From Antedon bifida (Eukaryota; Echinodermata; Crinoidea; Comatulida; Antedonidae), in assembly GCA_963402885.1 (NCBI GenBank), contig OY727095.1, positions 315,001 to 379,000 of the forward strand: DNA of 64,000 bases, read 5' to 3'. The notes below the pieces were generated by a model. The model did not search any database and was not told where the DNA came from. It saw only the letters and a list, made by a program, of their open reading frames with translations. Every line of letters begins with the position of its first letter. Position 1 is the stretch's first letter. The position numbers were made by a program, and so were the translations under genes. Shown here piece by piece: positions 1 to 64,000 of the stretch.

Positions 1-600
1 AGATATGCCTAACTATATACTAATTAAGTTTATTTTATTTATAGTTATTATTTATTATTAAGTGGTTTAGGTAAACGGATAACCAGTTTAATTTAGTTTA
101 ACGATGGTGTTTAAGTGGTTTTAGTTAGTGCCTTGAGCACTTTTGTGGATATGTGCGCTTTATAAATCTTATTATTATCTTACTTTCTTATTTTATCTTA
201 AACGGATGGTGTTAAGTGGTTTTAGTTAAACGGATAACCAATTTAGTTTAGTTTGATTTTATTTTTAGTTCAACGGATAACCAGTTTAGTTTAGTTTGAT
301 TTTATTTTTAGTTAAACGGATAACCAGTTTAGTTTAGTTTGATTTTATTTTTAGTTAAACGGATAACCAGTTTAGTTTAGTTTGGTTTTATTTGTAGTTA
401 AACGGATAACCAGTTTAGTTTATTTTAACGATGGTGCTTAAGTGGTTTTAGTTAAACGGATAACCAATTTAGTTTAGTTTGATTTTATTTTTAGTTAAAC
501 GGTTAACCAGTTTAGTTTAGTTTAACGGTGGTGCTTAATTGGTTAGTTAGACGGATAACCAGTTTAGTTTAACGATGGTGTTTAAAATACCATAAATGTA
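1..600. repeat. minisatellite, ~42-bp unit (AACGGATAACCAGTTTAG core)
   Basis: At least ten tandem, partly degenerate copies of a unit built from AACGGATAACCAGTTTAG followed by a T-rich tail (TTTGATTTTATTTTTAG). Some copies carry a variant block containing CGATGGTGTTTAAGTGG. The array lies downstream of the last visible subtilase exon, so it is probably intronic in that minus-strand gene. No coding signal was found inside it. Confidence 0.9.
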
Positions 601-652
601 AAGATTGGTAGGGCCTATACATGTTGTTGTGTTGTGGATGGGCTATACTTAC

Positions 653-2071
653 ATTTCCATAATCCTGTACAGCTCTTTTACCAAAGTCTGCGTGATTCGG
701 GTTTATACCTGTATCGATTATATAAGCATGTGCGTTCTTGCCGTCACCGGCTGAAATGAATAGAATAATATTTAGTGTTTTGATTGGTATTGGTCTCAGA
801 ATAATTTGAAATGTAAGATATTTTAACAGAAAGGTAATTCACAGTCGACATGATAGGATAGGGGTTTTTTCACACCTGCTCCGGTCGTCCGGCTCTGGGC
901 GTTCAGGTTCGCGCGTTATTTTGCGCGTCAAATATCGACTGCGTTTTCACGACGCGGAACATTGAGACACGAATTTATTTATAGCAAACAATGAATTAGC
1001 CTTACTTTTGTAGTCGATATCGCCATCAAGTGGAAGGTATCTCTGGTTGACACGGTCAATACCCCAGGAGCCGACGTCTGTGGTTCGTACGATGCCGTCT
1101 TCTTCAACGTATGATACGGAGGCTAGATTTCGGATCTGGAGTTAAATATATAAAAATAAATACAGAGAGCATTTTTTTATTTCATTTTATTCATTTGGCA
1201 TGCCGGCTCGAAAGTAGCAACAGGAAACTCTGTCGATCGGCAGAAAGGATGTGTGGCTAAACAGCTTTCGTTCCATTTTAAACGACATTCTGTATTGCGT
1301 AATTACAAGTTGGAACCGATGACGCAACAGTGCTGCAAACATCGCGCGTTTGATTTCACGCAGGCGGGGGCAAACACAATTATTGGAAGGGCATTTTTGT
1401 TACGTTGCGTAGGTTGCGTTACGTTGCATCGCTAGTGGGAACCAAGCTTTGAGTACTACCACTAACCTGTAGAAGTGCTTGGTCGTCCAATATGGCGGAG
1501 AATCCATTGGCTACCGTGCGGAATATATTCTTGATATTGACACTTCCACTGATTGCTCCGATACCAGTCACTTCTGAGTCCACGTCAACATCATCCTATT
1601 TAAAAAGTGTAATACATGCTTATTCAAGTAATACTTGGCCATATACTCGGAACAAAAACAATAGCAATATACTACACTCTTCCGAATGTTAAGATACCAA
1701 TTACTGTATTATTCTAAATATAGACAACCAACCCTTAATATTAACCATTAGTACAGAGGCCTACTAACTGTGTTGAATTAATATCCGATTCCTAGTCGGT
1801 TTCCTGTCTAAATTTGACCAGTTGGCCTGACAAATTTCATGATACAGCTTCACGAGTAAAATTAACACATAACACATATATCATAAACCTTAATCTTCCG
1901 CGATACAGGCATCACATGTGAATCTACAACACTGAGAATCGAGTGAACAAAACGATCACAAACCTTAAGTACAACAATGTACTGTCCCTGTATCCTTTCC
2001 TTAGCTTTGTGCAAAGGAGCGAGCGCATTTGCAGCAACAACACATGCAAGCAGCAATAGAAATCGTTGCAT
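653..2071 (-). CDS. proteinase-K-like subtilisin serine protease, 5' part (4 exons, runs off left edge)
   Basis: Secreted peptidase S8 (proteinase K / cerevisin type); only the signal peptide, propeptide and start of the catalytic domain are in the window. Exons on the minus strand: 1964-2071, 1467-1595, 1006-1135, 653-750. All have GT/AG borders and phases agree (0, 0, 1). Exon 1 starts with Met and a hydrophobic signal peptide (FLLLLACVVAANALA), then the I9 propeptide begins (GQYIVVLK). Exon 2 ends the propeptide (NGFSAILDD). Exon 3 has SVSYVEEDGIV and the SWGIDRVNQ entry to the mature enzyme. Exon 4 holds the catalytic aspartate in YIIDTGINPNHADFG (D135 of the joined protein). The exons with catalytic His and Ser lie beyond position 1 or are missing. 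A MITE (2205-2342) sits just upstream. Family call is strong; exact orthology is unknown. Confidence 0.85.
1400..1448. mobile_element. MITE family B, right-end fragment
   Basis: Ends in CTAGTGGGAACCAAGCT, the conserved terminus of family B, preceded by the typical GTTGCGTTACGTTGC stretch. No matching left end was found, so this is a fragment. It lies in the subtilase intron between exons 2 and 3. Confidence 0.6.
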
Positions 2072-2204
2072 TTTGATTTTTAAAGTCGCTGGAGGGAAAA
2101 AAAGTTTTTTTTTTCATTAGCTTACTAAGCATGATCTTACCTTAAGAGTGAATATTAATCGGGTGATTTTTGAAAACTCACTTATCATATACTGTTTAGT
2201 GTAA

Positions 2205-2342
2205 AGCTTGGGTCCCACTAGAGACGTGAACGCAAGAACGCAACGCAGCGTAAGTGATTTGACTAATCGGTGGCTTGTCATTGGTCAACTCGCTTGCGTT
2301 GCGCGTACGTCCTTGCGTTGTGTTTCTAGTGGGAACCAAGCT
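2205..2342. mobile_element. MITE family B, complete copy with TAA duplication
   Basis: Starts AGCTTGGGTCCCACTAG, ends CTAGTGGGAACCAAGCT and is flanked on both sides by TAA. Inside are opposed copies of a GCAACGCAAGTGANTTGACCAAT-like block, so the element is almost palindromic. Three-base TAA/TTA duplication fits a Tourist/PIF-Harbinger-like MITE (inference). It lies about 130 bp upstream of the subtilase start codon. Confidence 0.75.
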
Positions 2343-2862
2343 TAAGAGCTACAATAAAATTACTGAACCTAAATCTAAAAAACAACACAACTTACTCTTT
2401 GTCACTTAGAATGAGATGCTGTAACGAATATATAACTCAGTTCGAGTCTTGTGAAATGTCTTCCTCTGCCTTTCTCTCTCTTTATATGGAACTTTAATAT
2501 CATCACGTGACTAAAGCTATTGTTTGTTAACACCGCTAATAATCCTGCAAGGTAATTAAGATAAAAAAACAAAAACATTTCGCCATTAACTTTAATTTAT
2601 TGCACACATGTTATATTTTGTATTGTATGTATATCATTTTATTGATAGTATTATTCATTTTCGTCCTAAATTAGTGATCATATTAATGATATTAATTAAT
2701 TTGGAGGTACTATTTACCTAGTTGTATTATTAAGGATTTTGCAAAATGTACGCCTGTCTTCCATATAGCATACACAATTAATATTGTTAACATTTACACA
2801 GCCGATGTACCTGATATATTTGGATAATTAATATTAGCAAAACAACTAAATAGTCACGCAAT
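2343..2862. other. AT-rich spacer, nothing recognised
   Basis: About 520 bp between the family B MITE and the RAG1-like element. No open exon with coding character, no repeat copy and no RNA gene was recognised. Confidence 0.6.
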
Positions 2863-3000
2863 GGTTTATCGCAAATAGCTTGATTTCCCAGGAACGTCAT
2901 TGCACAATGCATGATGGGAAGGGCTTGGGACCAAAACGTCACGCACGGTATCTCCGTAATGGACAAAAAGCTGATTATTAGAGAGGGCGCGCTATGTATA
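2863..3000 (+). repeat. left terminal inverted sequence of the RAG1-like element
   Basis: Left arm of the inverted pair. Its first ~80 bp also match the left half of the 38656 MITE, including the left-specific CATTGCACAATGCATGATGG block, which the right arm lacks. That asymmetry is what allows left and right ends to be told apart. Confidence 0.7.
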
Positions 3001-4107
3001 GAGTGCGCCCTCTACATTTAAAGGGTCAAAACACGCTTGATTGGCGTTGGGCTGTAACCGTACTTTAAATGACCAATGATGTGCCTTAGATAAATAAAAT
3101 CAACTGAATATTCATGAGAAACGTTATGAGGTAATCACTGAACCGCCCAAAAAAATAATTTGCCGAATCTGTTCACGATGTATGGAAGTAAACGAAGAAT
3201 GAAAATCAGTCTTTATTTTTTCTGTTATTTTCACCAAAATTTTGATGATTTTTGTTATTTCGGCAGGTAATGTAATAAAGGCGTTATTTATATACACATT
3301 CTATTTCTAGAATGTTTAACTATTATCAAACAAGTATATAAAAAATTAGGGTTCCGTATCGGTTAGTATTTTTGCAATACGAGTTTGAACATGTGGGTGA
3401 AATACACGTGTTGAAGTTGAACTCGCATGGCGTAGGACGTGTTGGTAGCATAGAGTACAGTAGGGGTATCTTAATTGGTGGGACTATTACCGCTAGTAAA
3501 CACAATTGAAATGAATAAGAAATGGTTGTTCGTAATTCAACATTTTATTAGACCTAGGCCTGTTAGAACTTAGTGTCTAGTAGTAGGCCTAGGCTAGCCG
3601 GCTAGCCTACTAAATAGTAAAAATAGGCCTAGCTAGGCCAAGCTAGAGAGATAGTAGCCTCCTCTCTCTGGCTTAAATATACAGGATCAGGATATACAAA
3701 TATTGAATACAGGTTAGGTATACTTCTACTTAGTCAAATGATGACTCAATATAATCAATACTAATGTTAAATATAGCCTAGGCCTACTGAGTTTTAGGCA
3801 TAGGCTAGTAATAATAGTATATAAACAAAATAATGAGCAAAATAATGTGGATACATTAGCTGATTGAATTACCAACAATAAAAACAACATATGTCGTTTT
3901 TTTTTAGACTGGTTGATATTTCTATTTACAATGACAATTTTATACATAGTTAAGTTGTAGTTGTATATGGTAATGCGCAATGATTCCATTTTTTTAACTA
4001 TAATCAACTTGATATCTGGCGTAGGAAAGATTTTTGTTTCATCATATCATATGCAATGAATTAAATTTTACAACATAGAAAATTAACCGTTGTCAAGTTA
4101 ATATGCA
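3001..4107. other. non-coding left interior of the RAG1-like element, with an AGGCCT cluster
   Basis: Between the left arm and the stop codon of the RAG1-like gene. It contains a dense cluster of the palindromic hexamer AGGCCT / TAGGCCTAGGC (3551-3640, again near 3776-3786). A 93-residue open frame at 3726-4007 is low-complexity and was not accepted. No RAG2-like (kelch) exon was recognised. Confidence 0.5.
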
Positions 4108-7100
4108 TTATAATCCGACCACCTCATTCTTCAACTGAGTTTGTACCTGAAAATAAATATATAAATATAAGTTTTTACAAATAATATACAAGCTACATAT
4201 TTCAATTATTATGTTTTTTCCATTAATTACAAATTTTGAAAATAACTTTTGCTCACAATCTTTCCTCAATCTTTTTTTAGGCTTGACAACCTTGCTATTG
4301 ATTTGTGGACTCGTCAACGTAAGATGATTCCGCATAATGGAAATCATCTTCCTCATTTCGGACTGCACACCATATACGCTTCTTGCTTGTCTATTAAATG
4401 CAGCATGTATCTGTTCACCGCCTTGTTCGCTAAGCAACCCCAAACCAATCTGCCACCTCTTTAATGTTGGTACCACATGCTTCTCAAGCATGTGCATTTT
4501 TGGAGTGATGCTGTGGCCATACTTCCGGAACTCTCCGACAAAATCATGGATGTTGTTGTCTACAGCATAATAAAAATAGTATGTTGTTTATGATTTTGTT
4601 ATCGTCATTTATAAATTAGTAACCATTGTTTTTAATAAACTGTATACCTACCAATTTCTTTGATTTCCTCAGTAGTAAGCGATCTGGTATGGTTAATCTT
4701 CTGCTCCACAATTGAATATTTGCTAAACAACGGAATGTATTTGTCCTTCATGGTATCTAATTCAAGTTGCAGATCCTTAGCAATACCTATAGGCAGGTCC
4801 ATTGACTGCTCGTCAAAAGTTGACTGGCATGCGGCGATCAAATGTGATATGATGTTTATCTGTATTTAGGAGCAAACATTTCACAGTTAGTAAACAACCG
4901 GGCAAAAAAAACTAAAAAGCATTTTATTAGTCTACTATAATTTTATTATGGAATGTGCTCAGTCTACCTTGCAACATTTATGAACATGATTGCCGATAAA
5001 GGCTTTTCCATGATATGCTTGCCTGTCGACTTTATGCTTCTTCAGCACATTGTCCATTGCTGCAGTTAATGGCCCAGCACCCACCTTAAAATCATCTTTC
5101 TCTATTGATTTTTCCTATGAAATTTAACAAACAATCTGTCAACATTGCATATAGAATTAATTAAATTAAAATAATCTTTATTAACAATACCATATATAGT
5201 ATGAGAGAGTATGCAAATTTAATCATTAATCATTGTTTATTAGTTTTATTTGTATTTGCAGATTGTCATATTTCGAGAGCAGTGAATACCTAATGAGTTT
5301 GTGGCACCCTCCCTGTGCCTGTTTCTGCAATGTATGTGGTTTCATTTTATTACTTACAAGTTCTCTAATTGCTTGCAATTTTGTTGTCAATGCTGTTGAC
5401 TTTAGTAATTGCGAGATGGGCATGTTGTCTTCCATGTTGGAAATGTCGATCTGCAGTTTGTTTATTTTTTCTCTGCAGGCTTCATTTAGAGCTGTTTTCT
5501 TTGCAATTGTAATTTCAAAGTTGTTCAGTTCTTCTGATGGATTTGATTGTCTGAATTTTAAAAAATAATACAACTTAAAATACAAAATGGGCTTCTTTCT
5601 AGTATATTGATTTTTTAAAAGTATGTAATGTTACCTGAGTTTATATATTTTTCGGTCCAAGTTATGGGCATCCGATTCTAATAGGTCGTACAATTTCTTG
5701 AATACTCCTAGCGAAATATGCAGGCAAGGAATTGAAACCTGTAAAACAATTTAATTAAAATGGATTAGAATAATGCATTGCAGTTAAAATGCCTTGTATT
5801 GCGTATTTTTTGGTAATATAGTTTTATTTAAAACTTACATGGTCAATATCAATGTTTACCATTGGCTCTCGAACAACATTTCTTGATATGTCTTTGCTAG
5901 TTTCTTCATGAGAGCCATGGGCAACAAATTGCTTATAGTCCTCCCGGAGTGACATCATGTTTCTGTCTTCCTTGCTAATGCCACTGTTCATGTGGTCTTT
6001 GGTGGCGTGGCAAAACAAACAACCATATCGGCCTAAGAAATAAAGTCAATAAAGAACAATCTACAAACTGTAGGAATACTATTTAATTTAAACTCTCTGT
6101 AACATGTATATATTTGTTTTTACTTACCATTAGGTGAAAGAAGGCCATATATCCGCACAAGGAAGTCATAATCGCCGAAAAAGAACAGTCTGATATTGTA
6201 CCCCCTATGATGAAGAATAAGAATTTATCAAAATTAAAAGGGTAAGAGTTTCTTCATTCGAATAAAAAATGTATTACATAAAATAGTTCATTCTTACCTC
6301 CAAACTTGTCCATGCAAGTCTGTTATTTCTTTGACTATTAATGGCAGAGTCCTTGCCAGATTCACTGTATAATCTGGTGCATTAAACATCAAAACCACCA
6401 ATATGTTCTTCAGTGCATTGGGCTTATCTATGCTACAAATCTGGATCTCAAATTTGGTAGAGCCGCCACCTTTGTCGCCACCAAATTTTAGGAAAATTTC
6501 TCCATCATTTGGTTTAATGTTCCCTAATCTAAAACAAACAAATTATAAAAATGAATTCTTGGAAAATGTTTATGTTTTGCTAATAAACTTTAGCATTTAT
6601 ATTAAAAATTAAACTTACTGGTAATGACTCTCCAAGTAAGAGAATACAAAAGATTGTATGTTTTTGATCCTTACTACTGGTGCTTCAATTTCCTCAAAAC
6701 CATTCTCCCCACTGGCAGTTTCATTTTTGAACACTAGTTTCACCATTTCTCCATGTACATAATCCTGCACTATCAAATTCTGCATGGAACGCATTTTACG
6801 TTCAGAGGAAAGTGTTCCTGGTGGAAGATACCTGTAAAAGTATTGATAGTACAGTTAGTAATAAAGGTTTCATATCACTATATGCTGCTTTTGTTTCTAT
6901 AAAATGAACTACAATTTGTATGTAGTCTGCTTTGTATTGATTATTTTTCTTGAATGAAATATTTATATATATTTAAAAATTGTTATTTACCTCCTCAGTT
7001 TACGAAACTGCTGCCAACCAAGATCACAATCAGTCTTTAATGCGAGACCTACATCTACATCAGGCTGTGTTTGTTGTGTTGGGCTTTGCTTCACGCCACC

Positions 7101-8181
7101 ATGTATGCTTTTCTCCAACCGTTGAAATTCTGCAGACCTTCTGGTAATAGTTTTTTTACAAATACCTTGTGTCTTGTTGGATGTCTGTATAACACTGACT
7201 TTCAATGGCTGCAAAATTAAAGAAACCTGCTGTATGATTTACTAAAAAATGTACAAAAATAATAATATGCATTAGATATTAAAAAAGTATTTAAATACAT
7301 GCTCTATGTATTATTAATAGTTTGGATTAATGTAATTTAAAAGTACTTACTCTGCCCTTTGTCATCAAGTTCAGTTCTTTATTCTTTTTTAGGGATTTGT
7401 GCAAGACATTATGTGCTAATTTGTGAAGTTCATCTGGTATGACCTCATTAATTTCACTGTTGATTTCAGTTACTGCTTTCTGTATTTTCTTCACCTTTTG
7501 TTGGCACTTGGATGTACATTCATGACTATCACATTGATGATATAGCAATGTGTCTGAGCATTTTTTACAAGTCAGTTCTACACCCAATAGTGACTGTTTA
7601 CTCAATTCAGATGCCTTTGTGACGTCAAACACATTTACAGGACAAGAACATTTTATACAAGGAATTACATCACATTTAAGGGTACTAAATAATTGCGACA
7701 AACAGTGTGCACAGAATGTGTGGCCACATTTAGTTTCAGACATGGACAAAGACATAACATGTTTACAAATGGCACACATAAACCAATCTTTGGAAGCATC
7801 TTTTAATTTAAATTGACTGGGTAATGATGGCAAATTCGTATTAGTAGATGAAAATGTACCATTGTTGTTTCTTTGGAAAGTTGTGTGTTTTCTTTTTAAG
7901 CCTTTGTTTTTAATATTTGTAAATAAATAACATGACAAACATGACTCTGTTGTGTGTTCTGTCCAGTTGTATGTGTTTATCGGTTGAAATTTGTATGCCT
8001 TTGACTCGCATGTAGTGCAAACAAACTGGGGATGAATGCTACTAATATTAGTGTCTAAGTTATTGTGGTGTGAAATGTCTGGCCTAAGATTTGCAATCTT
8101 ACATTTTTTTTCGGAATTTCTAAATTTATTGCCACACAATCTACAAAGCCACAACATTGAACTAGAGTGAAGAGACAACAT
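4108..8181 (-). CDS. RAG1-like transposase/recombinase, 11 exons, 955 aa
   Basis: DDE-type recombinase related to RAG1. Minus-strand exons: 7351-8181, 6991-7208, 6619-6831, 6298-6528, 6128-6204, 5839-6032, 5635-5738, 5358-5550, 4968-5114, 4652-4859, 4108-4559. All borders are GT/AG and all phases join, giving 955 codons and TAA. N-terminal zinc motifs: CRLCGNKF (13-20), IHPQFVCTTC (49-58), CLSC then GLKRK (81-98). RING: C136/C139, C152/H154, C157/C160, C175/C178. Next zinc finger: C205/C208. K275-G-R-P278 plus TRRSAEFQRLE (299-309) resembles the RAG1 nonamer-binding GRP and LTRRAQ region. Core: GGDKGG (D439, RAG1 D600 position), FNAPDY (470-474, D708 region), CLFC (528-531, ZnC2), H828/H833 (ZnH2), GGEQIHA (E854, E962 position). 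RAG1 residue names are from family knowledge. The 3' end may contain a further small intron (after SKF, rejoining at VQTQL). A start at Met9 is also possible. Confidence 0.85.
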
Positions 8182-8719
8182 TTTGACAGTTTACTTACAT
8201 TGATACACAAAATACACTAAATCAGTACAGTAAAGAACGTCAGAATAGGCCTAGTGAGTGTAAATTTATTGGTATGTCATTGACCGATTGCGTAAAATTA
8301 AGCCGATACGGAAATCTGATTTTTTATTGAAATACAGTATGACCTTGGCCTAGATGGCTGGCGAAGTCCCTGATTTTCAATACGCAATATTTTTTGTGTG
8401 GCAGACGATTTTCCGAGTTCATATTTAGCGCTACCTCGATTTCGTGGTGGCGCTGTTTGTCCAGGGTCGCTTAAATACTTCACAAGTAAAACACTACAAA
8501 ATAATACGAAAACCAATTTTATGCGAAATTTTCTTTTAATAACCAGTTTATTAAACATATATAAAGTGAAAAACTAATGTAACTTTGTTTAAATTAATTT
8601 ATATAAACCATGGTAAGCCATTTACTACGGGTATACCTCGATCTAAAAATGATAAACAATCCTCACGACTCGCTCTTCACGCTCCATTGAACACGATGTT
8701 TATAGTAACTATGCGGATT
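8182..8719. other. 5' flank of the RAG1-like gene inside the element
   Basis: Presumed promoter and leader for the minus-strand RAG1-like gene. A minus-strand open frame at 8298-8558 begins with a basic then hydrophobic stretch (FRIKLVFVLFCSVLLVKY), but no acceptable splice partner was found. No TATA box could be assigned. Confidence 0.35.
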
Positions 8720-8879
8720 CGCGCCCTCTATAGTACGAGGCTTTTTGTCTCAAAATGATATTTACGAAGATACCGTGCACGACGCGTACGGACAAACAAC
8801 AAATCACGTACGTACGCGTCATGACGTTTGCTCCCAAACCCTTCCCATCATGCGTCGCGCTCGCTATTTGCGATAAAAA
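8720..8879 (-). repeat. right terminal inverted sequence of the RAG1-like element
   Basis: Read on the minus strand it begins TTTATCGCAAATAGC and carries GCATGATGGGAAGGGTTTGG, then a right-specific block GTACGTGATTTGTTGTTTGT and the shared GCACGGTATCT, GACAAAAAGC and AGAGGGCGCG blocks. The right-specific block is found in the right half of the 38656 MITE but not in the left arm of this element. Confidence 0.7.
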
Positions 8880-44649: not shown

Positions 44650-47600
44650 ATGGCAGGTGAGTTTGTTTGTTGATTGATTGCATGTATGCATTCCGAAGAG
44701 TCATTGTATTGTACTTGTATGTACGACATTCAAAACTTGTCTGTAGTAGTGCGGAGCGGAGGGTAGAATGAATAGCTAACGACAGAAAGCAAACAAATAG
44801 AACATTGTCAAGCTGCAATGAATATCATTAATCATAGCTTGTGTACTTTTAAACCAATATGTCTTTCGAATTTAGATGTTTATTTACGTTTCCCTACCCA
44901 TCACTGTATTTGAATTTGACACCGCCACCTGATGGATTTGTCAAGAAATGGTTGAAAAAATGTGTGGAATCTTGCTTTCTTTTCTAAACTTTTAATACTA
45001 GGATAGGCCTATGTCCGTGCTGGGTATCTATTTCTTTGTTACATTCATGTTTTGGCATTCTGCATTGCTGCGCAACCTTCTCAATTCAATTAAATGAGGG
45101 AGGGACAGTTGAGTTGATATCAATAAACAGGCAGCAGGGACAGTTGAGTTGATATCAATAAACAGGCAGCAGGGACAGTTGAGTTGCACTGACCTGGGTA
45201 CATTTTGCACATTGCTTGCTCTCAGGTCAATTCATTCACACATCCTACCATACATAGCAGTAGTAGTAACCTAGCTAGGCTTTGATATAGCATATTGAAT
45301 ATAATTTAAACTTTAAGAATCTAATAAGTTAGATTTTATTTTTTATTTTCATTACTACTACATTACCCTTTTTCCCACTACCAAAAAACAGAAAGCGTGA
45401 GTATAATTCTAAGTATGCCAAACTACTGTTTTAAATCAAAACTTACATTTTGTACCACATTTCAGATTTACTCAGGCCACACCCACCTACAACAATCAGG
45501 TACTATTTACTGGACTTCCTACAAAATACAAAGATATAAACACTTTATGCCAACAACAACTTGATATAAAACCTTTTGTTTTTTCAGGTGCTGGTGAAAC
45601 AAGTTGGTGTTTCTCACAACTGAAAGGAACTGTAGAAGAAGATGTCACTGAAGGTTTGTTCATTTTAGCCTACTGCAAACATTTTAATGTACATTGTTTA
45701 TGTTATACCATTCCCAAACTCTTTTATGTATGAGAGTGATGTGACACTTTGTAATTTGGTTTTTGTTAATTTTTCATTTATCTGTTTTTGTATATCTCTA
45801 AGCAAACACAAGTAATTTTCCACTGATGAATGAATGAATGCTTTTCTAAATTTGGATAAATTGAAAGTATTGTTAGATATTAATTTCTTTTGGTATCATG
45901 ATCTGTCTGGAAGGTTTACAGTACTGTAGCTGCTACCCTTTAGGACAATTTTATTTTTTATAAACTAAGTACTGTATTAGTGCACAGTAGTAATCGTAAT
46001 AAACAACAGGTATTAGTAGTCTATTCAATTGCAAGCGAGTGCTTCTTTACATTATAAATGTGTTGATTAATGTGTTTGTACTGTATTGATATGCTGTTAA
46101 AGAATTGAGGGAAATATATTAAATGTATTACTAAAAACAGGAAACTTGTTGGAACAAAATGATATGCATGATCGACCACCAACACAAATTATTGTTACAT
46201 AAATCAATCAAACAGAATGATATTTAAATAATAATTGGTTTGGAGCATTTTTTTTTAAATACAGTAATATATTAATATGAACAATTGTTAGACATTTCTA
46301 TTCAGTGTCTCTTACTGTTCTATAAGATGGCTGTTTGTCTGCTAGCATTTAGGGAACGAAAAGGAGTTGGTTTTAAATGCTGCATAGCATAGATACTATA
46401 CAGTACTTGTGCTTTTATGCTAAGAACTAGGGCTAATTTTTAACTAGACAAAAAACTATGCATGGAAGATGGTTTAGCTAGAGCCTAACGCTGCATTCAC
46501 ACACCTGTTGCATTCCACCATACAGAAGACGACAGCATTCAATTTTTACGATTTTTCATTAAGTGGCACCATCTTCAGCTAAACCTATAGTTAATGAATG
46601 AATGTGCCACTATCAACAGCTAAACCTATAGTTTAATGAATGAATGTGCCACTATCAACAGCTAAACCTATAGTTAATGAATGAATGTGCCACTATCAAC
46701 AGCTAAACCTATAGTTTAATGAATGAATGTGCCACTATCTTCAGCTAAACCCATAGTTAATGAATGAATGTGCCACTATCAACAGCTAAACCTATAGTTT
46801 AATGAATGAATGTGCCACTATCAACAGCTAAACCTATAGTTAATGAATGAATGTGCCACTATCAACAGCTAAACCTATAGTTAATGAATGAATGTGCCAC
46901 TATCAACAGCTAAACCTATAGTTAATGAATGAATGTGCCACTATCAACAGCATTTATTTGTCCACTATATAAAGTATCAGCAATTTGTTTTCTGTACACT
47001 ACATATATTAATAATTGTATTGACCACAGTACATTGGAGTTAATAATAATAATAGTTTGCATTTGTAGTTTACAGTAGTCATTGTTCCACATCAATGTTA
47101 CTTCCTATACAAATTGAACTTTGGTCATTTCCTCCTCTACAAACCAGAAGCAGCTGAGTATAGCCTTGATATTTCCTGATTCAGTGCACACCACCTTTTG
47201 GTAATCACATGCAAAAATTTGCTACTTTTGTTGTAGAATACTTGCTTTTTAAAAGACTGGGTTCAAATCCTGGCGAGGGCAATTAACTACAGCAGTGGGG
47301 ATCCAAGGAGGGAGGGAGAGCACATGGCCTAAAAGTACAGTAGTGAAATGAAGTGCTAAACTTAATTTGATGTACTATCTTGCGCATTACAATTTGTTAA
47401 ATGTAGAGGATGCCTGGACCGGCTGGCCTTCCACCTTGAACAGAACTTCTTTCTAACAATGACATGCCGCATATTGTACTTTTAAATTGCACTTCCTTGT
47501 TAAGCCAAGTTGGCTATTGGAAACTTGGAACTATCATTAATTGTGCTTTTCTAACCCTGGTAAAAAATATTTATAACTATAAAAAAACAACCTTACTGCA

Positions 47601-55365: not shown

Positions 55366-56584
55366 ATGTCTGAGTTTAATGTGACTTACAATGACACTAC
55401 AGATACTTCCTATGTGACTTACACTACAAAGACTATTAGAACCTCAACCTCAGCAACCACTCTTAACGTAACTTCAACTGAAGATTTTGAGCCTACATTA
55501 CGCAGTTCAAGTCTTCTCTATATTCTTTTGATAATCGACTTTATAACCATAATTATTAGGAAATTTGCTTGTTATCGTGGCAGTTTTTAGGAATCATCGG
55601 CTGCGCTCAACCACGAACTTACTGATCGCTTCGTTGGCGTTGGCAGATTTTCTAATTGGCGTGGCTGTCCTCCCTACCGCCATTTCATTGGAATACTCCT
55701 CTGGTTACTGGTATTTTGGCAGAATTTGGTGTGACATTTGGCATGCCATAGATGTATTCTGTTGCACTGCATCTATATTAAACCTATGTATCATATCTTT
55801 TGATCGATACTGGGCGATAACGAGGCCGATGACTTACCGTTTCAAAATGACGAAACGCGTCAGCTGTTTTCTCATCGCGTTTGTATGGGTTTCTGCGTCT
55901 GCCATTTCGTTCCCGTGGTTAATTTGGTGGAGGAAAGTAGATCCACCATTTGTTGTGAATCAATGTATTTTTACAAGTAACTCGCTATTTATTTTTCTTT
56001 CATCATTTATTTCGTTTTATTTGCCATGCACAATTATGACTTTCATTTATTTAAGTATTTAGGCCTACTTAACAGTTAAGCAGCAAATACGAGGAATTCT
56101 AACCGGTACAAAAAGCGTAATAACAAGGACAAGCAAATCAGACAAACATGAAAAACCCGTAAATTTACGAATACATCGCGGAGGTACATTAAAAAAGAAT
56201 AAACTAACATACACTATGAAAACTGAACACAAAGCCGCCAAAGTGCTAGGTATCGTTATGGGTATTTTCATCGTTTGTTGGCTACCATTCTTTGTAACAA
56301 ACGTTCTATCAGCTCTCTGTATAGAATGTATTAAATACCCAGGGTATATCTTTCCAATAGTAAGCTGGCTTGGATGGCTCAACAGTACAATGAACCCGTT
56401 AATATACGCATTTGTCAGCAAGCAGTTCCGTAAAGCATTCCGTGATATTCTGTTTGGTTCTTTTTGTCGAACTAAGAGTTCACACTCATCGTCTGTAGTT
56501 ACCACCCTTTCGAAAGGTATCATCAATGCAACATTTATAAACGAGGAGGAAGATTTCAAATTAGCAACTTACAAATATTCCTGA
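55366..56584 (+). pseudogene. aminergic-type rhodopsin-family GPCR, disrupted by a frameshift and an in-frame stop
   Basis: Single-exon 7TM receptor related to biogenic-amine receptors (dopamine D1/octopamine/trace-amine group; subtype not resolved). Frame 1 from ATG 55366 gives an N-terminus with several N-x-S/T sites and the first part of TM1 (LLYILLIIDFITII). The frame then shifts by one base at 55556-55561 and GNLLVIVAVFRNHRLRSTTN continues. Later landmarks: SLALADFLIGVAVLP (TM2), CDIWHAIDVFCCTASI with the amine-binding Asp of TM3, DRYWAI, SFYLP in TM5, then TAG at 56060-56062. The same frame resumes with YLTVKQQIRG, KAAKVLG, CWLPFF (TM6), NSTMNPLIYAF (TM7) and RKAFRDILFG, ending at TGA 56582. 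AATAAA at 56828. The stop lies in TAGGCC, which looks like a 6-bp insertion. Either a young pseudogene or two assembly errors; short-intron alternatives would destroy TM1. Confidence 0.8.
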
Positions 56585-61400: not shown

Positions 61401-64000
61401 CCAAAAAGCAATACTGTATTAACTGTTTACCAGAACTGTATTAACTGTTTACCAGAACTGTGTTAACTGTTTACCAGAACTGTGTTAACTGTTTACCAGA
61501 ACTGTATTAACTGTTTACCAGAACTGTGTCAACTGTTTACCAGAACTGTGTTAACTGTTCACCATAACCGTGTTAACTGTTTACCAGAACTATGTTTTAA
61601 CTGTCTACCAGAACTATGTTTTAACTGTCTACCAGAACTATGTTTTAACTGTCTACCAGAACTATGTGTTAACTGTCTACCAGAACTGTGTTAACTGTCT
61701 ACCAGAACTGTGTTAACTGTCTACCAGAACTGTGTTAACTGTCTACCAGAACTGTGTTAACTGTCTACCAGAACCGTGTTAACTGTTTACCTTGATAGAG
61801 GAATCTTCACCACCAAATAATTCTTGTACATACTCCTTGACTCTTGGTGCGGCCATACGCTCTGGGTCAGACCCTCCGATATCACGGGCTACAAGACTGT
61901 TTGAAATTGTAGAAAGGTATTTTTAGAACTGATCGAAATAGATTTAATAAAATTTAATTTGATTATTATTGTATATTGTTAAACCTTTTCTACGAAAGAG
62001 TGTTCCTCTGTTACAAAAGAGTGTACCGGCAATAAATTATTATTCATTTATGATTATGGAATCCCATACATAATAGTATAATAAATGTAGCCACATGTTT
62101 AGTAACTATTTACCGTCCACTCTCAAGAGCTTCTGACCACTTCTTGATGCGTGCACCTTGTGAGCTATCTGAACACAAGAAGCCTAGCTTTTCTGCTTTA
62201 CTGATGCGTTCATTCTTCAAATCACGAATTTCAAGAGGCTGTTTATTGGAAATTTAAAAGTAATTTTGTTAGATATTAATTCTCTATTGATATTTTATAT
62301 TTATCTTTTCAGTCTAGTTACATTTACTATTTGCACTGAGGAAACGGTGTTACTGAAACGCTCTGCAATTTCTTTCTGGCTGTATTACTGTTTATTTGAT
62401 TATTTTATTTGTATCTCTATTGAGATCCAGACACAGCATTGTCATTTTTTCTGTAATTTTCATTTTTATTTAACCATTTAAAATATGTTTCAACTTTTCA
62501 TAATCATATGCTACTTACAACATATAAAGAATAGAATGCACCAAGCACAGATATAAGTAAAGCTTCTGTAAAGCTGTCATCTTCAGCACGGACAAGTAGA
62601 GGGCGTTTTACACCTGCTTTCAAAGCTCTAGTAGAAGAAATAAAAGGTAAGAACACTTTCTATCTGCTGCCACCTAGAGTATCTCAGGGCGTCACTGAAA
62701 GTTTTATTGAAAGGTTTGTACTAGACTAGGTTCTAGCCCGTAATTAGTAAAGATAAATATTTTGGCACATATGGCGTTTCATACGTATTTGGTTGTAAAT
62801 TGTATACAGTATTATTACAAAATATGATTTTTTAACTTATTTCATGGAGGTATGTTTATTTTGTACCTTTTAATACCAGCAAAAGCTGCATCAGCAAATA
62901 CTCTGACGTCATCGTAATCACGATTGAGAGGCCCGGTTGGTGAAAAGACCACACGTTTGATTTTACATTCTGCTGGTAGAGGACATACGACGATTTCTGA
63001 ACCAACTGAAGCGTCAATCTATAAAACAGATGAGATGACTTAAAAGATGACTTGGCTTAAATCATAATCTTGCATTATTGTTACAAACAGACATATATTT
63101 AATCCATTGATCCAAGATTTCAAGGATACAAATACTGACCAATCAAAAGTTGTGCCCAGAATTAATTCAATGATCCAAGATTTAAAGGATGCAAATACTG
63201 ACCAATCAAAAGTGGTTCCCGATTGATTTTACATGCATAAATATCTTTTATTTTATGGCAATTAAAGTGTGAGTGACAGAGAGACTAGATTTATGGGTTA
63301 TGGAGAATCTTTTTGCAGTTAAATGGTACTTGGTGCAAATACGTATAAAAAAGGAGAACCGAGGGGGAAAAACGCTTTATTAAAACGGATACATAAAATC
63401 AGAATATCCACACCAAAGTATTCTTACAGTCTTGAGGGTCTCCAGAGGTGCTTTGAGGAACTCTAGTTTGCCTGTGAGTTTCTCCAAGGAGTCTGTGACA
63501 AGGACAATCCCATCATAGGCTGCATCTTGAGGATCAGTTGTGAAATCTACTGGACACGGAAGTCTGTAAATAAAAGCACAACAAGATTACAATAATTTTC
63601 AATTAAACAAACCATGGGTTGTTTGTCAATATTAAAATATGATCATGATCATATGATGCATGGAAAGTATTTAGTAAATCATGTTCCAATCATTATTTAA
63701 ATTGATTGGCCAAGCATAACAAAAAAATATCTGAAAACGCAATATGCCAGGCTGGACCATTTCCTGATTTCATCATATTCACAAAGTTACGATTCATAAA
63801 TTTCGTATAATAATGTGTCTAGATTACTAAAAAACCGTTAAAAAAATGGATACAAAATTATAATATATTTTATATATTTAAAAATATTTTTACCTTGGTG
63901 GAGCCATGACGAAGCCTTGATCCTTTGATATACTAACTGCAGCAGCACTACTACGCAAGGCACTGACCGCTCGTGTTGTATGACACTTGCAAGAATGACC
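58437..64000 (-). CDS. M17-family aminopeptidase, W07G4.4-like (15 exons visible, ~519 aa from likely Met)
   Basis: Metal-dependent leucyl-type aminopeptidase. Exons: 63894-64000 (open to edge), 63428-63563, 62867-63018, 62519-62627, 62114-62238, 61791-61896, 61188-61349, 60919-60983, 60686-60801, 60160-60278, 59867-59950, 59262-59319, 59080-59129, 58818-58949, 58437-58568. GT/AG borders, phases join, stop TAA. Counting from Met at 63907 (MAPPR), the two-metal site is intact: K268 (VGK), D273 in GVTYDTGGADIK, catalytic K280, D291 in HRDKCGAAA, and NTDAEGR (349-355, D351/E353/R355). The TYDTGGADIKAGG wording is closer to the invertebrate W07G4.4 type than to mammalian LAP3 (family knowledge). 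The frame stays open upstream of that Met to the window edge with an Arg/Ser/Ala-rich stretch (TTRAVSALRSSAAAVSIS), so a longer, possibly mitochondrial, start is possible. Confidence 0.93.
59341..59612. repeat. fold-back element with ~80-bp arms
   Basis: Left arm 59341-59430 and right arm 59529-59612 are inverted copies. Shared blocks include ATAATAGTTAATTATATC, AATAACGATTATTTTATT and ACCTGACGTTTCGCCAACT. The spacer has a second CAACT/AGTTG symmetry. In an aminopeptidase intron. Confidence 0.85.
59682..59770 (+). mobile_element. tRNA-derived SINE, copy 3 (internally shortened)
   Basis: CAGTGGAGCTGTAGGTTGGT head with the A-box region and B-box GGTTCAATCC (59718-59727), then CTGACCTAGTGCCAGG as in copy 1. 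Sequence between A and B boxes is partly deleted. In an aminopeptidase intron. Confidence 0.7.
60430..60615. mobile_element. MITE family A, expanded interior
   Basis: Starts AGCCTTGTCTACACTATC after TAA and ends TAGTGTATACAGAGT before TTA. The central ACTACCATATTTGNG block is present three times, making it ~40 bp longer than other copies. Confidence 0.75.
61075..61175. mobile_element. MITE family B, short degraded copy
   Basis: CTTGGTTCCCAATAGTGATG left end and CTCTAGTGAGAACCACGCT right end around a shortened GCAACGCAAGGACG / GATGGATTATTCGAA interior. Ends 12 bp before the donor side of the aminopeptidase exon at 61188. Confidence 0.65.
61412..61790. repeat. 22-24-bp minisatellite (about 16 copies) in an aminopeptidase intron
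   Basis: Unit GTGTTAACTGTTTACCAGAAC, with TTTACC and TCTACC variants forming two blocks and a TATGTTTTAACTG sub-block (61588-61660). It directly abuts the donor of exon 61791-61896, and the last unit supplies the GTAAAC donor sequence on the minus strand. Confidence 0.9.
63070..63215. repeat. ~67-bp direct repeat
   Basis: TTGATCCAAGATTTCAAGGA (63108) recurs as ATGATCCAAGATTTAAAGGA (63170), each followed by CAAATACTGACCAATCAAAAG. Two copies in the intron between exons 62867 and 63428. Confidence 0.8.

Follow-up and report, generated by a model that had tools for sequence, protein, structure and literature searches.

A Chapaev transposon with a RAG1-like transposase and V(D)J-signal-like ends in the crinoid Antedon bifida

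The element, its transposase gene and the repeat around it

The stretch analysed here (the window) comprises 64,000 nucleotides of Antedon bifida (assembly GCA_963402885.1, contig OY727095.1, positions 315,001 to 379,000 of the forward strand; C8:315001-379000 in the genome searched, G000, 315.6 Mb). It holds a transposon of the Chapaev type that encodes a RAG1-like transposase and lies inside a ~180-bp repeat resembling a miniature inverted-repeat transposable element (MITE). A sequence-only reading had previously drawn a RAG1-family transposon at 2863-8879, bounded by inverted arms (TTTATCGCAAATAGC...GCTATTTGCGATAAA), with termini other than CAC and no RAG2. The features, including ends that resemble recombination signal sequences (RSSs), are as follows.

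2863-2943, plus strand: left half of the ~180-bp MITE-like repeat, with its own inverted end GGTTTATCGCAAATAGC (genome search, junction alignment)
2940-2943, no strand: left copy of the 4-bp target duplication CACG (flank comparison, gene-free repeat copies)
2944-8777, minus strand: complete transposon, Chapaev type, 5,834 bp, 0 mismatches to G000:C12:17053910-17059743, flanks differing directly outside
2944-2971, plus strand: end on the gene's 3' side, 12-RSS-like; heptamer CACGGTA 2944-2950, spacer 2951-2962 (12 bp), nonamer ACAAAAAGC 2963-2971
4108-8181, minus strand: RAG1-like (DUF1280) transposase gene, 11 exons, 955 aa
8181-7351, 7208-6991, 6831-6619, 6528-6298, 6204-6128 and 6032-5839, minus strand: exons 1-6
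5738-5635, 5550-5358, 5114-4968, 4859-4652 and 4559-4108, minus strand: exons 7-11
4559-4257 and 4146-4124, minus strand: alternative 3' part (exons 11 and 12), 913 aa
7351-8181, minus strand: exon 1, with the RAG1-like N-terminal zinc (Chapa) region (residues ~13-84) and a RING (residues ~131-190)
8740-8777, minus strand: end on the gene's 5' side, 22-spacer RSS-like; heptamer CACGGTA 8777-8771, spacer 8770-8749 (22 bp), nonamer ACAAAAAGC 8748-8740
8778-8781, no strand: right copy of the target duplication CACG (flank comparison, gene-free repeat copies)
8778-8877, plus strand: right half of the MITE-like repeat, with inverted end GCTATTTGCGATAAA (genome search, junction alignment)

When rebuilt from the sequence, the 11-exon, 955-codon frame of the sequence-only reading was reproduced, with GT/AG at every junction and consistent phases. 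Removal of a 110-bp GT/AG intron (4256-4147) gives 12 exons and a 913-aa protein ending in KDCTNSVEE, a short tail like that of the closest relative, P0001; the last ~45 residues of the 955-aa frame are probably intron. P0001 carries the source label Antedon mediterranea, its single exons match this genome at 79-98% in the closest copies, and a genome search with it returned 118 matching stretches at E<=0.001, which are exons of many families and copies. DUF1280 (PF06918) was detected at residues 318-493 of the window protein (E=4.3e-15; score 56.4 bits, cut-off 25), and the N-terminal order of a Chapa zinc domain followed by a RING is present, the RING scoring under the Pfam cut-off in this protein. 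The conserved acidic residues are D439, D509, and E850/E854; between the second D and the E lie two zinc motifs. In an alignment (A1) of 27 rows, made up of 26 database homologues and the window protein, H828/H833 is invariant and C528/C531 is conserved to 90% or more. In the parts beside the gene (2944-4110 and 8182-8777), stop-to-stop frames other than the gene's own reach at most 106 aa and 91 aa; the absence of a RAG2-size frame outside the gene agrees with what had been claimed, within a frame survey that leaves room for a gene of many short exons. Rfam gave no match in the window at gathering scores, and no relatives were found in viral contigs.

A search of the genome for further copies and empty sites, which the sequence-only reading had proposed, yielded a second full copy and gene-free copies of the repeat. 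The second copy (C12:17053910-17059743) is identical to the query only at query positions 82-5915, that is, window 2944-8777, and it is flanked by AAAT on both sides, versus CACG at the window copy. The right half of the arms (query ~5916-6015) occurs at no fewer than 25 places away from gene copies, with the left half (query 1-81) adjoining in at least 19 of them, as counted in 40 scored candidates out of 418. Ten gene-free copies (such as L009-L018) were fetched and aligned to a reference made of the window's left and right flanks with one CACG between them, and all ten cross the junction with a single CACG where the window carries the 5,834-bp insert; one of them (L018) has two extra bases next to it. 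These copies were picked for their adjoining halves, so that their emptiness is by choice and the result is the exact junction. They are 89.6-92.2% like the repeat in the window and have an internal inverted match. The RAG1-like element jumped into the ~180-bp MITE-like repeat and duplicated CACG, and the arms quoted before belong to the repeat.

The inverted arms do exist (15/15 bp, E=0.022 taken alone; another block 47/60 bp, E=6e-8), and a perfect 15-bp inverted match flanking the gene speaks for a transposon bounded by TTTATCGCAAATAGC repeats at 2863-8879. The arms stand together without the gene at many places, however, and the gene copy on C12 stands without the arms, between unrelated flanks, so that the refutation test set by the sequence-only reading itself went against the element as drawn; we therefore regard an element so bounded as next to impossible, and the termini at 2863 and 8879 were rejected. 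The two sides also share inverted blocks such as CACGGTATCT, GACAAAAAGC, and GAGGGCGCG, and these make up the true ends of the element. An insertion within another repeat can thus give an element false termini. A separate inner inverted match of ~42 bp (ATAAAAAATTAGGGTTCCGTATCGG...; 3338-3378 and 8287-8327) lies at a distance from the ends.

Since the two full copies are completely identical, the element appears to have moved recently. Older copies, incomplete or interrupted, are present on C8, C10, and C11. We read 4-bp target duplications at eight insertions across four families, a count that excludes copies with a single end left (e.g., L019, L020, L024, and L025). The intact frame in the window would also suit a domesticated host gene; the existence of two full copies, identical but differently flanked and each exactly duplicating its target, along with the older broken copies, makes this extremely improbable. 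Taken together, the ends, the 4-bp duplications, the identical second copy, and the empty target are sequence traces of cut-and-paste insertion.

Relation to RAG1 and assignment to Chapaev

The claim that this is a transposon with a RAG1-related transposase held, for the N-terminal part by profile and for the core by the predicted folds of two relatives. A profile built from 20 relatives matches RAG1 101-490 at E=5.2e-14, and the predicted models of the two relatives have a fold and an architecture like those of the RAG1 core. Other results speak against kinship of the core. A search with the core-only profile ended without any PDB chain at E<=10, and for the window protein by itself no RAG1 chain came up at E<=1, the hits being mainly RING chains; the kinship of the core is accordingly read from predicted folds of relatives and not from that of the window protein. 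The region of P0002 that aligns with the RAG1 nonamer-binding domain gave fold alignments only at 7-10 Å root-mean-square deviation. The Pfam RAG1 profile (PF12940) did not match the window protein, and neither RAG2 (PF03089) nor RAG1 (PF12940) profiles matched this genome, in a search where the controls were equally silent.

Chapaev elements generate 4-bp target duplications. DUF1280 corresponds to Chapaev transposases (PMC3985635, in the part available), the combination of a RING with an N-terminal, RAG1-like Chapa domain has been described in Chapaev proteins (PMC4411706), and duplications in the wider group range from 2 to 5 bp (PMC12730594). The element shares with RING-bearing Chapaevs of the CMC/CMCT group the DUF1280 core, CAC termini, the C(2)C and H(3-4)H motifs, the RAG1-like Chapa zinc region with RING, a single transposase gene, and 4-bp duplications; it differs in the RSS-like 12/22 nonamer layout of its ends. 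We consider it very likely that 2944-8777 represents a complete cut-and-paste transposon of the RING-bearing Chapaev type that was mobile recently, with a RAG1-like transposase alone, no RAG2 gene seen, and 12/22 ends. It is a new member of a group that is itself already known. No literature on Chapaev in crinoids was found.

The RAG1 fold predicted in relatives, the CAC heptamer, and the RAG1-like N-terminal domain would also be expected of an atypical Transib or ProtoRAG (RAGL) element. Transibs have 5-bp duplications, no N-terminal RAG1-like region, and mostly symmetric ends (available text of PMC8355894, PMC8289069, and PMC7204232), whereas the window element combines 4-bp duplications with such a region; what it has in common with them is the heptamer and, in its relatives, the predicted core fold. 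ProtoRAG and RAGL elements share a RAG1L fold with an N-terminal zinc region and CAC heptamers, but they carry RAG2L and make 5-bp duplications, and ProtoRAG has spacers of 27/31 and a distal element that is not A-rich (PMC8355894, PMC8289069, as far as available); the window element has no frame >106 aa outside the gene. With 4-bp rather than 5-bp duplications at all eight insertions, DUF1280 in the core, no RAG2-size frame, and no PF12940 match to the protein, a Transib or RAGL identity is very unlikely. The "distinct lineage" of the sequence-only reading is thus right in setting the element outside Transib and ProtoRAG, but the lineage already has a name, Chapaev. The mobile element N-RAG-TP of Aplysia, which contains sequence like the RAG1 N-terminus (PMC8355894, in part), is alike in this respect by description, and may itself be a Chapaev.

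Heptamers, nonamers and spacers at the ends

The true ends of the element open with CAC and form CAC..GTG termini; termini of a different kind had been claimed, and the RSS-like 12/22 ends had been overlooked. Older family 1 copies (the family of the window element) agree with these ends on C11 (3' end, spacer 12) and on C8 (5' end, spacer 22). The RSS consensus is CACAGTG-12/23-ACAAAAACC (PMC8289069, available in part). The family 1 nonamer has 8/9 letters of ACAAAAACC, and with CAC heptamers, spacers of 12 and 22, and A-rich ACAAAAAGC at both ends, the element fits a 12/23 layout with spacers of 12 and 23 +/-1. It shares with the V(D)J 12-RSS and 23-RSS the CAC heptamer, the A-rich nonamer, and unequal spacers that differ by about a helical turn, and it differs from them in the spacer of 22 versus 23, in the heptamer (CACGGTA versus CACAGTG), and in that its signals are transposon ends with no RAG2 seen. 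In 467 kb of sequence (both strands, real ends included), exact ACAAAAAG follows CAC at any one spacer length with a frequency of ~1.6e-4. By sequence layout, the V(D)J-signal-like 12/22 arrangement of Chapaev ends appears to be the new point. No description of nonamers or 12/22 ends for Chapaev was found in the literature searched, although the original Repbase Reports lay outside the search and could hold one; the available parts of PMC4411706 and PMC12730594 contain no RSS-like Chapaev ends.

When the window and 26 loci were scanned blindly for CAC..GTG pairs flanked by a 4-bp duplication, the ends came up in the window itself as well as in L026, L027, L028, L039, and L040; single hits in L020 and L025 were judged chance, and the remaining 19 loci gave none. 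A loosened search of five further loci found family 3 in L045, with a left boundary that agrees with the copy in L044. In family 2, three copies carry CACGGTG-12-ACAAAAAGT and CACGCTG-22-ACAAAAAGT, with duplications TTGA, ATTA, and TTGG. Family 3 has CACGGCA-12-ACAAAAAGT and CACGGCA-21-ACACAAAGT (duplication ATGG), family 5, read by eye, has CACAGCT-13-AAATTAAGT and CACAGCT-22-AATAAAAGT (GTAT, ATTA), and family 7 has CACGGTG-12-ACAAAAAGT at its 3' end, the 5' end being outside the stretch examined. All five families in which an end was located have their short spacer on the 3' side of the gene.

The family 2 elements (L026, L027, and L028, on C16, C14, and C11 of G000) are ~3.36 kb long and 99.9-100% identical at three places; having no match to transposase residues ~218-809, they are probably recent, non-autonomous copies. 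Three Chapaev insertions of families 1 and 5 (L002, L039, and L040) have flanks of seemingly one repeat (CACAAAATGGTCTAAAACGT...), hinting at a preferred target.

Spacer counts were compared with chance by a genome search for CACG-N{5,33}-GACAAAAAG, which gave 185 matches, 100 of which were tallied. Spacer 12 occurred nine times (eight Chapaev ends), 22 six times (four Chapaev ends), 4 eight times, 29 eight times (mostly one unrelated repeat), and 8 six times, with all others at five or fewer. When the same tally was restricted to CACG[G/C][T/C], a filter selected after the ends were known, spacer 12 had eight matches, 22 had five, and any other had at most two. Over the whole list, CACRSY with spacer 12 gave 58 matches versus 29 in the reversed control, and 14 of the 58 are, by sequence, ends of families 1, 2, 3, and 7.

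Several observations weigh against a functional 12/22 signal and are consistent with a layout that shared ancestry or composition produced as a by-product, with the A-rich block an accessory site whose distance is irrelevant to synapsis. None of the long spacers has the full 23 bp; they measure 22 or 21. The nonamers are degenerate in family 3 (5' end) and weak in family 5, where blind scoring against ACAAAAACC puts the best positions elsewhere than at 13/22 (3' side, 5/9 letters at 28, 11, or 9; 5' side, 6/9 at 23). No RSS-like ends were found in six other loci or families (L034, L035, L036/L037, L043/L046, one side of which runs into N, L048, and L049), and the doubtful candidate ends of L048 have no nonamer. 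Ends with other spacers also exist: a lone candidate in L042 at 11 bp and, among the matches listed, ends at 16 and 25 bp in two places each. In the tally without the heptamer filter, 12 leads, but 22 ties with 8 and trails 4 and 29, and the overall pattern is not enriched (185 versus 352 in the reversed control). Finally, the families are related and come from one genome, so that they document conservation within one branch and not many origins; the exact 12/22 of families 1 and 2 does not amount to two independent origins. What speaks against a by-product is that the spacing was kept despite differing spacers, in families whose aligned DNA is just ~67-70% identical in longer stretches (families 1 and 2), and the constant side of the short spacer. 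On balance, we hold a by-product to be rather unlikely. The possible spacer variants lie at C1:16336052 and C8:22556914 (16 bp), C7:3556859 and C7:3570332 (25 bp), and L042:1777 (11 bp).

Elsewhere in the window, two adjoining plus-strand frames (55553-56584) have motifs resembling those of a monoamine-type seven-helix receptor. On the minus strand (~1981-2070, MQRFLLLLACVV...), ~790 bp from the ~180-bp repeat, lies the apparent start of a gene for a secreted, putatively subtilase-like protein. Tandem arrays occupy 46576-46951 (41 bp, nine copies) and 61413-61791 (22 bp, 17 copies).

A possible 12/22 rule without RAG2

In the available text of PMC8355894, only some Transibs (Transib5 of Drosophila and some of Anopheles) are credited with 12/23 asymmetry beyond V(D)J recombination itself, and no RAGL pair follows 12/23. 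The same source states that in jawed vertebrates the asymmetry is recognised only with RAG2, and a figure legend in it calls the ends of an eastern-oyster RAGL asymmetric. Invertebrate RAGL is expected to be relatively insensitive to asymmetry (PMC7204232, in part).

In the mechanism that we propose for the Chapaev element, a transposase dimer would hold the CAC heptamers with its core and the A-rich nonamers with the part of the protein that aligns to the nonamer-binding domain of RAG1. The short (12) end would be paired preferentially with the long (22) end, nicking and hairpinning would proceed as in RAG1 and Transib, with hairpin-type excision, and insertion would be staggered by 4 bp. With spacers that differ by about one helical turn, the pair of ends would work in the manner of the 12/23 rule and favor synapsis of the two unlike ends of one element, without RAG2. 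It is possible, and we suggest it tentatively, that Chapaev, with no protein but a RAG1-like transposase, uses an asymmetric heptamer-nonamer signal of 12/22 that amounts to a 12/23 rule. In that case the bipartite signal with unequal spacers known from V(D)J recombination would predate both RAG2 and the split of Chapaev from Transib and RAG.

The origin of the 12/23 rule is an open question, and no RAG2-bearing relative (RAGL, ProtoRAG) follows 12/23 in the available part of PMC8355894. An intact-looking, recently moved element with near-consensus nonamers at 12/22 and no RAG2 seen offers a concrete enzyme and substrate, and lets one ask whether a RAG1-type protein alone reads unequal spacing. 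If it does so in Chapaev, RSSs need not have arisen with, or depend on, RAG2.

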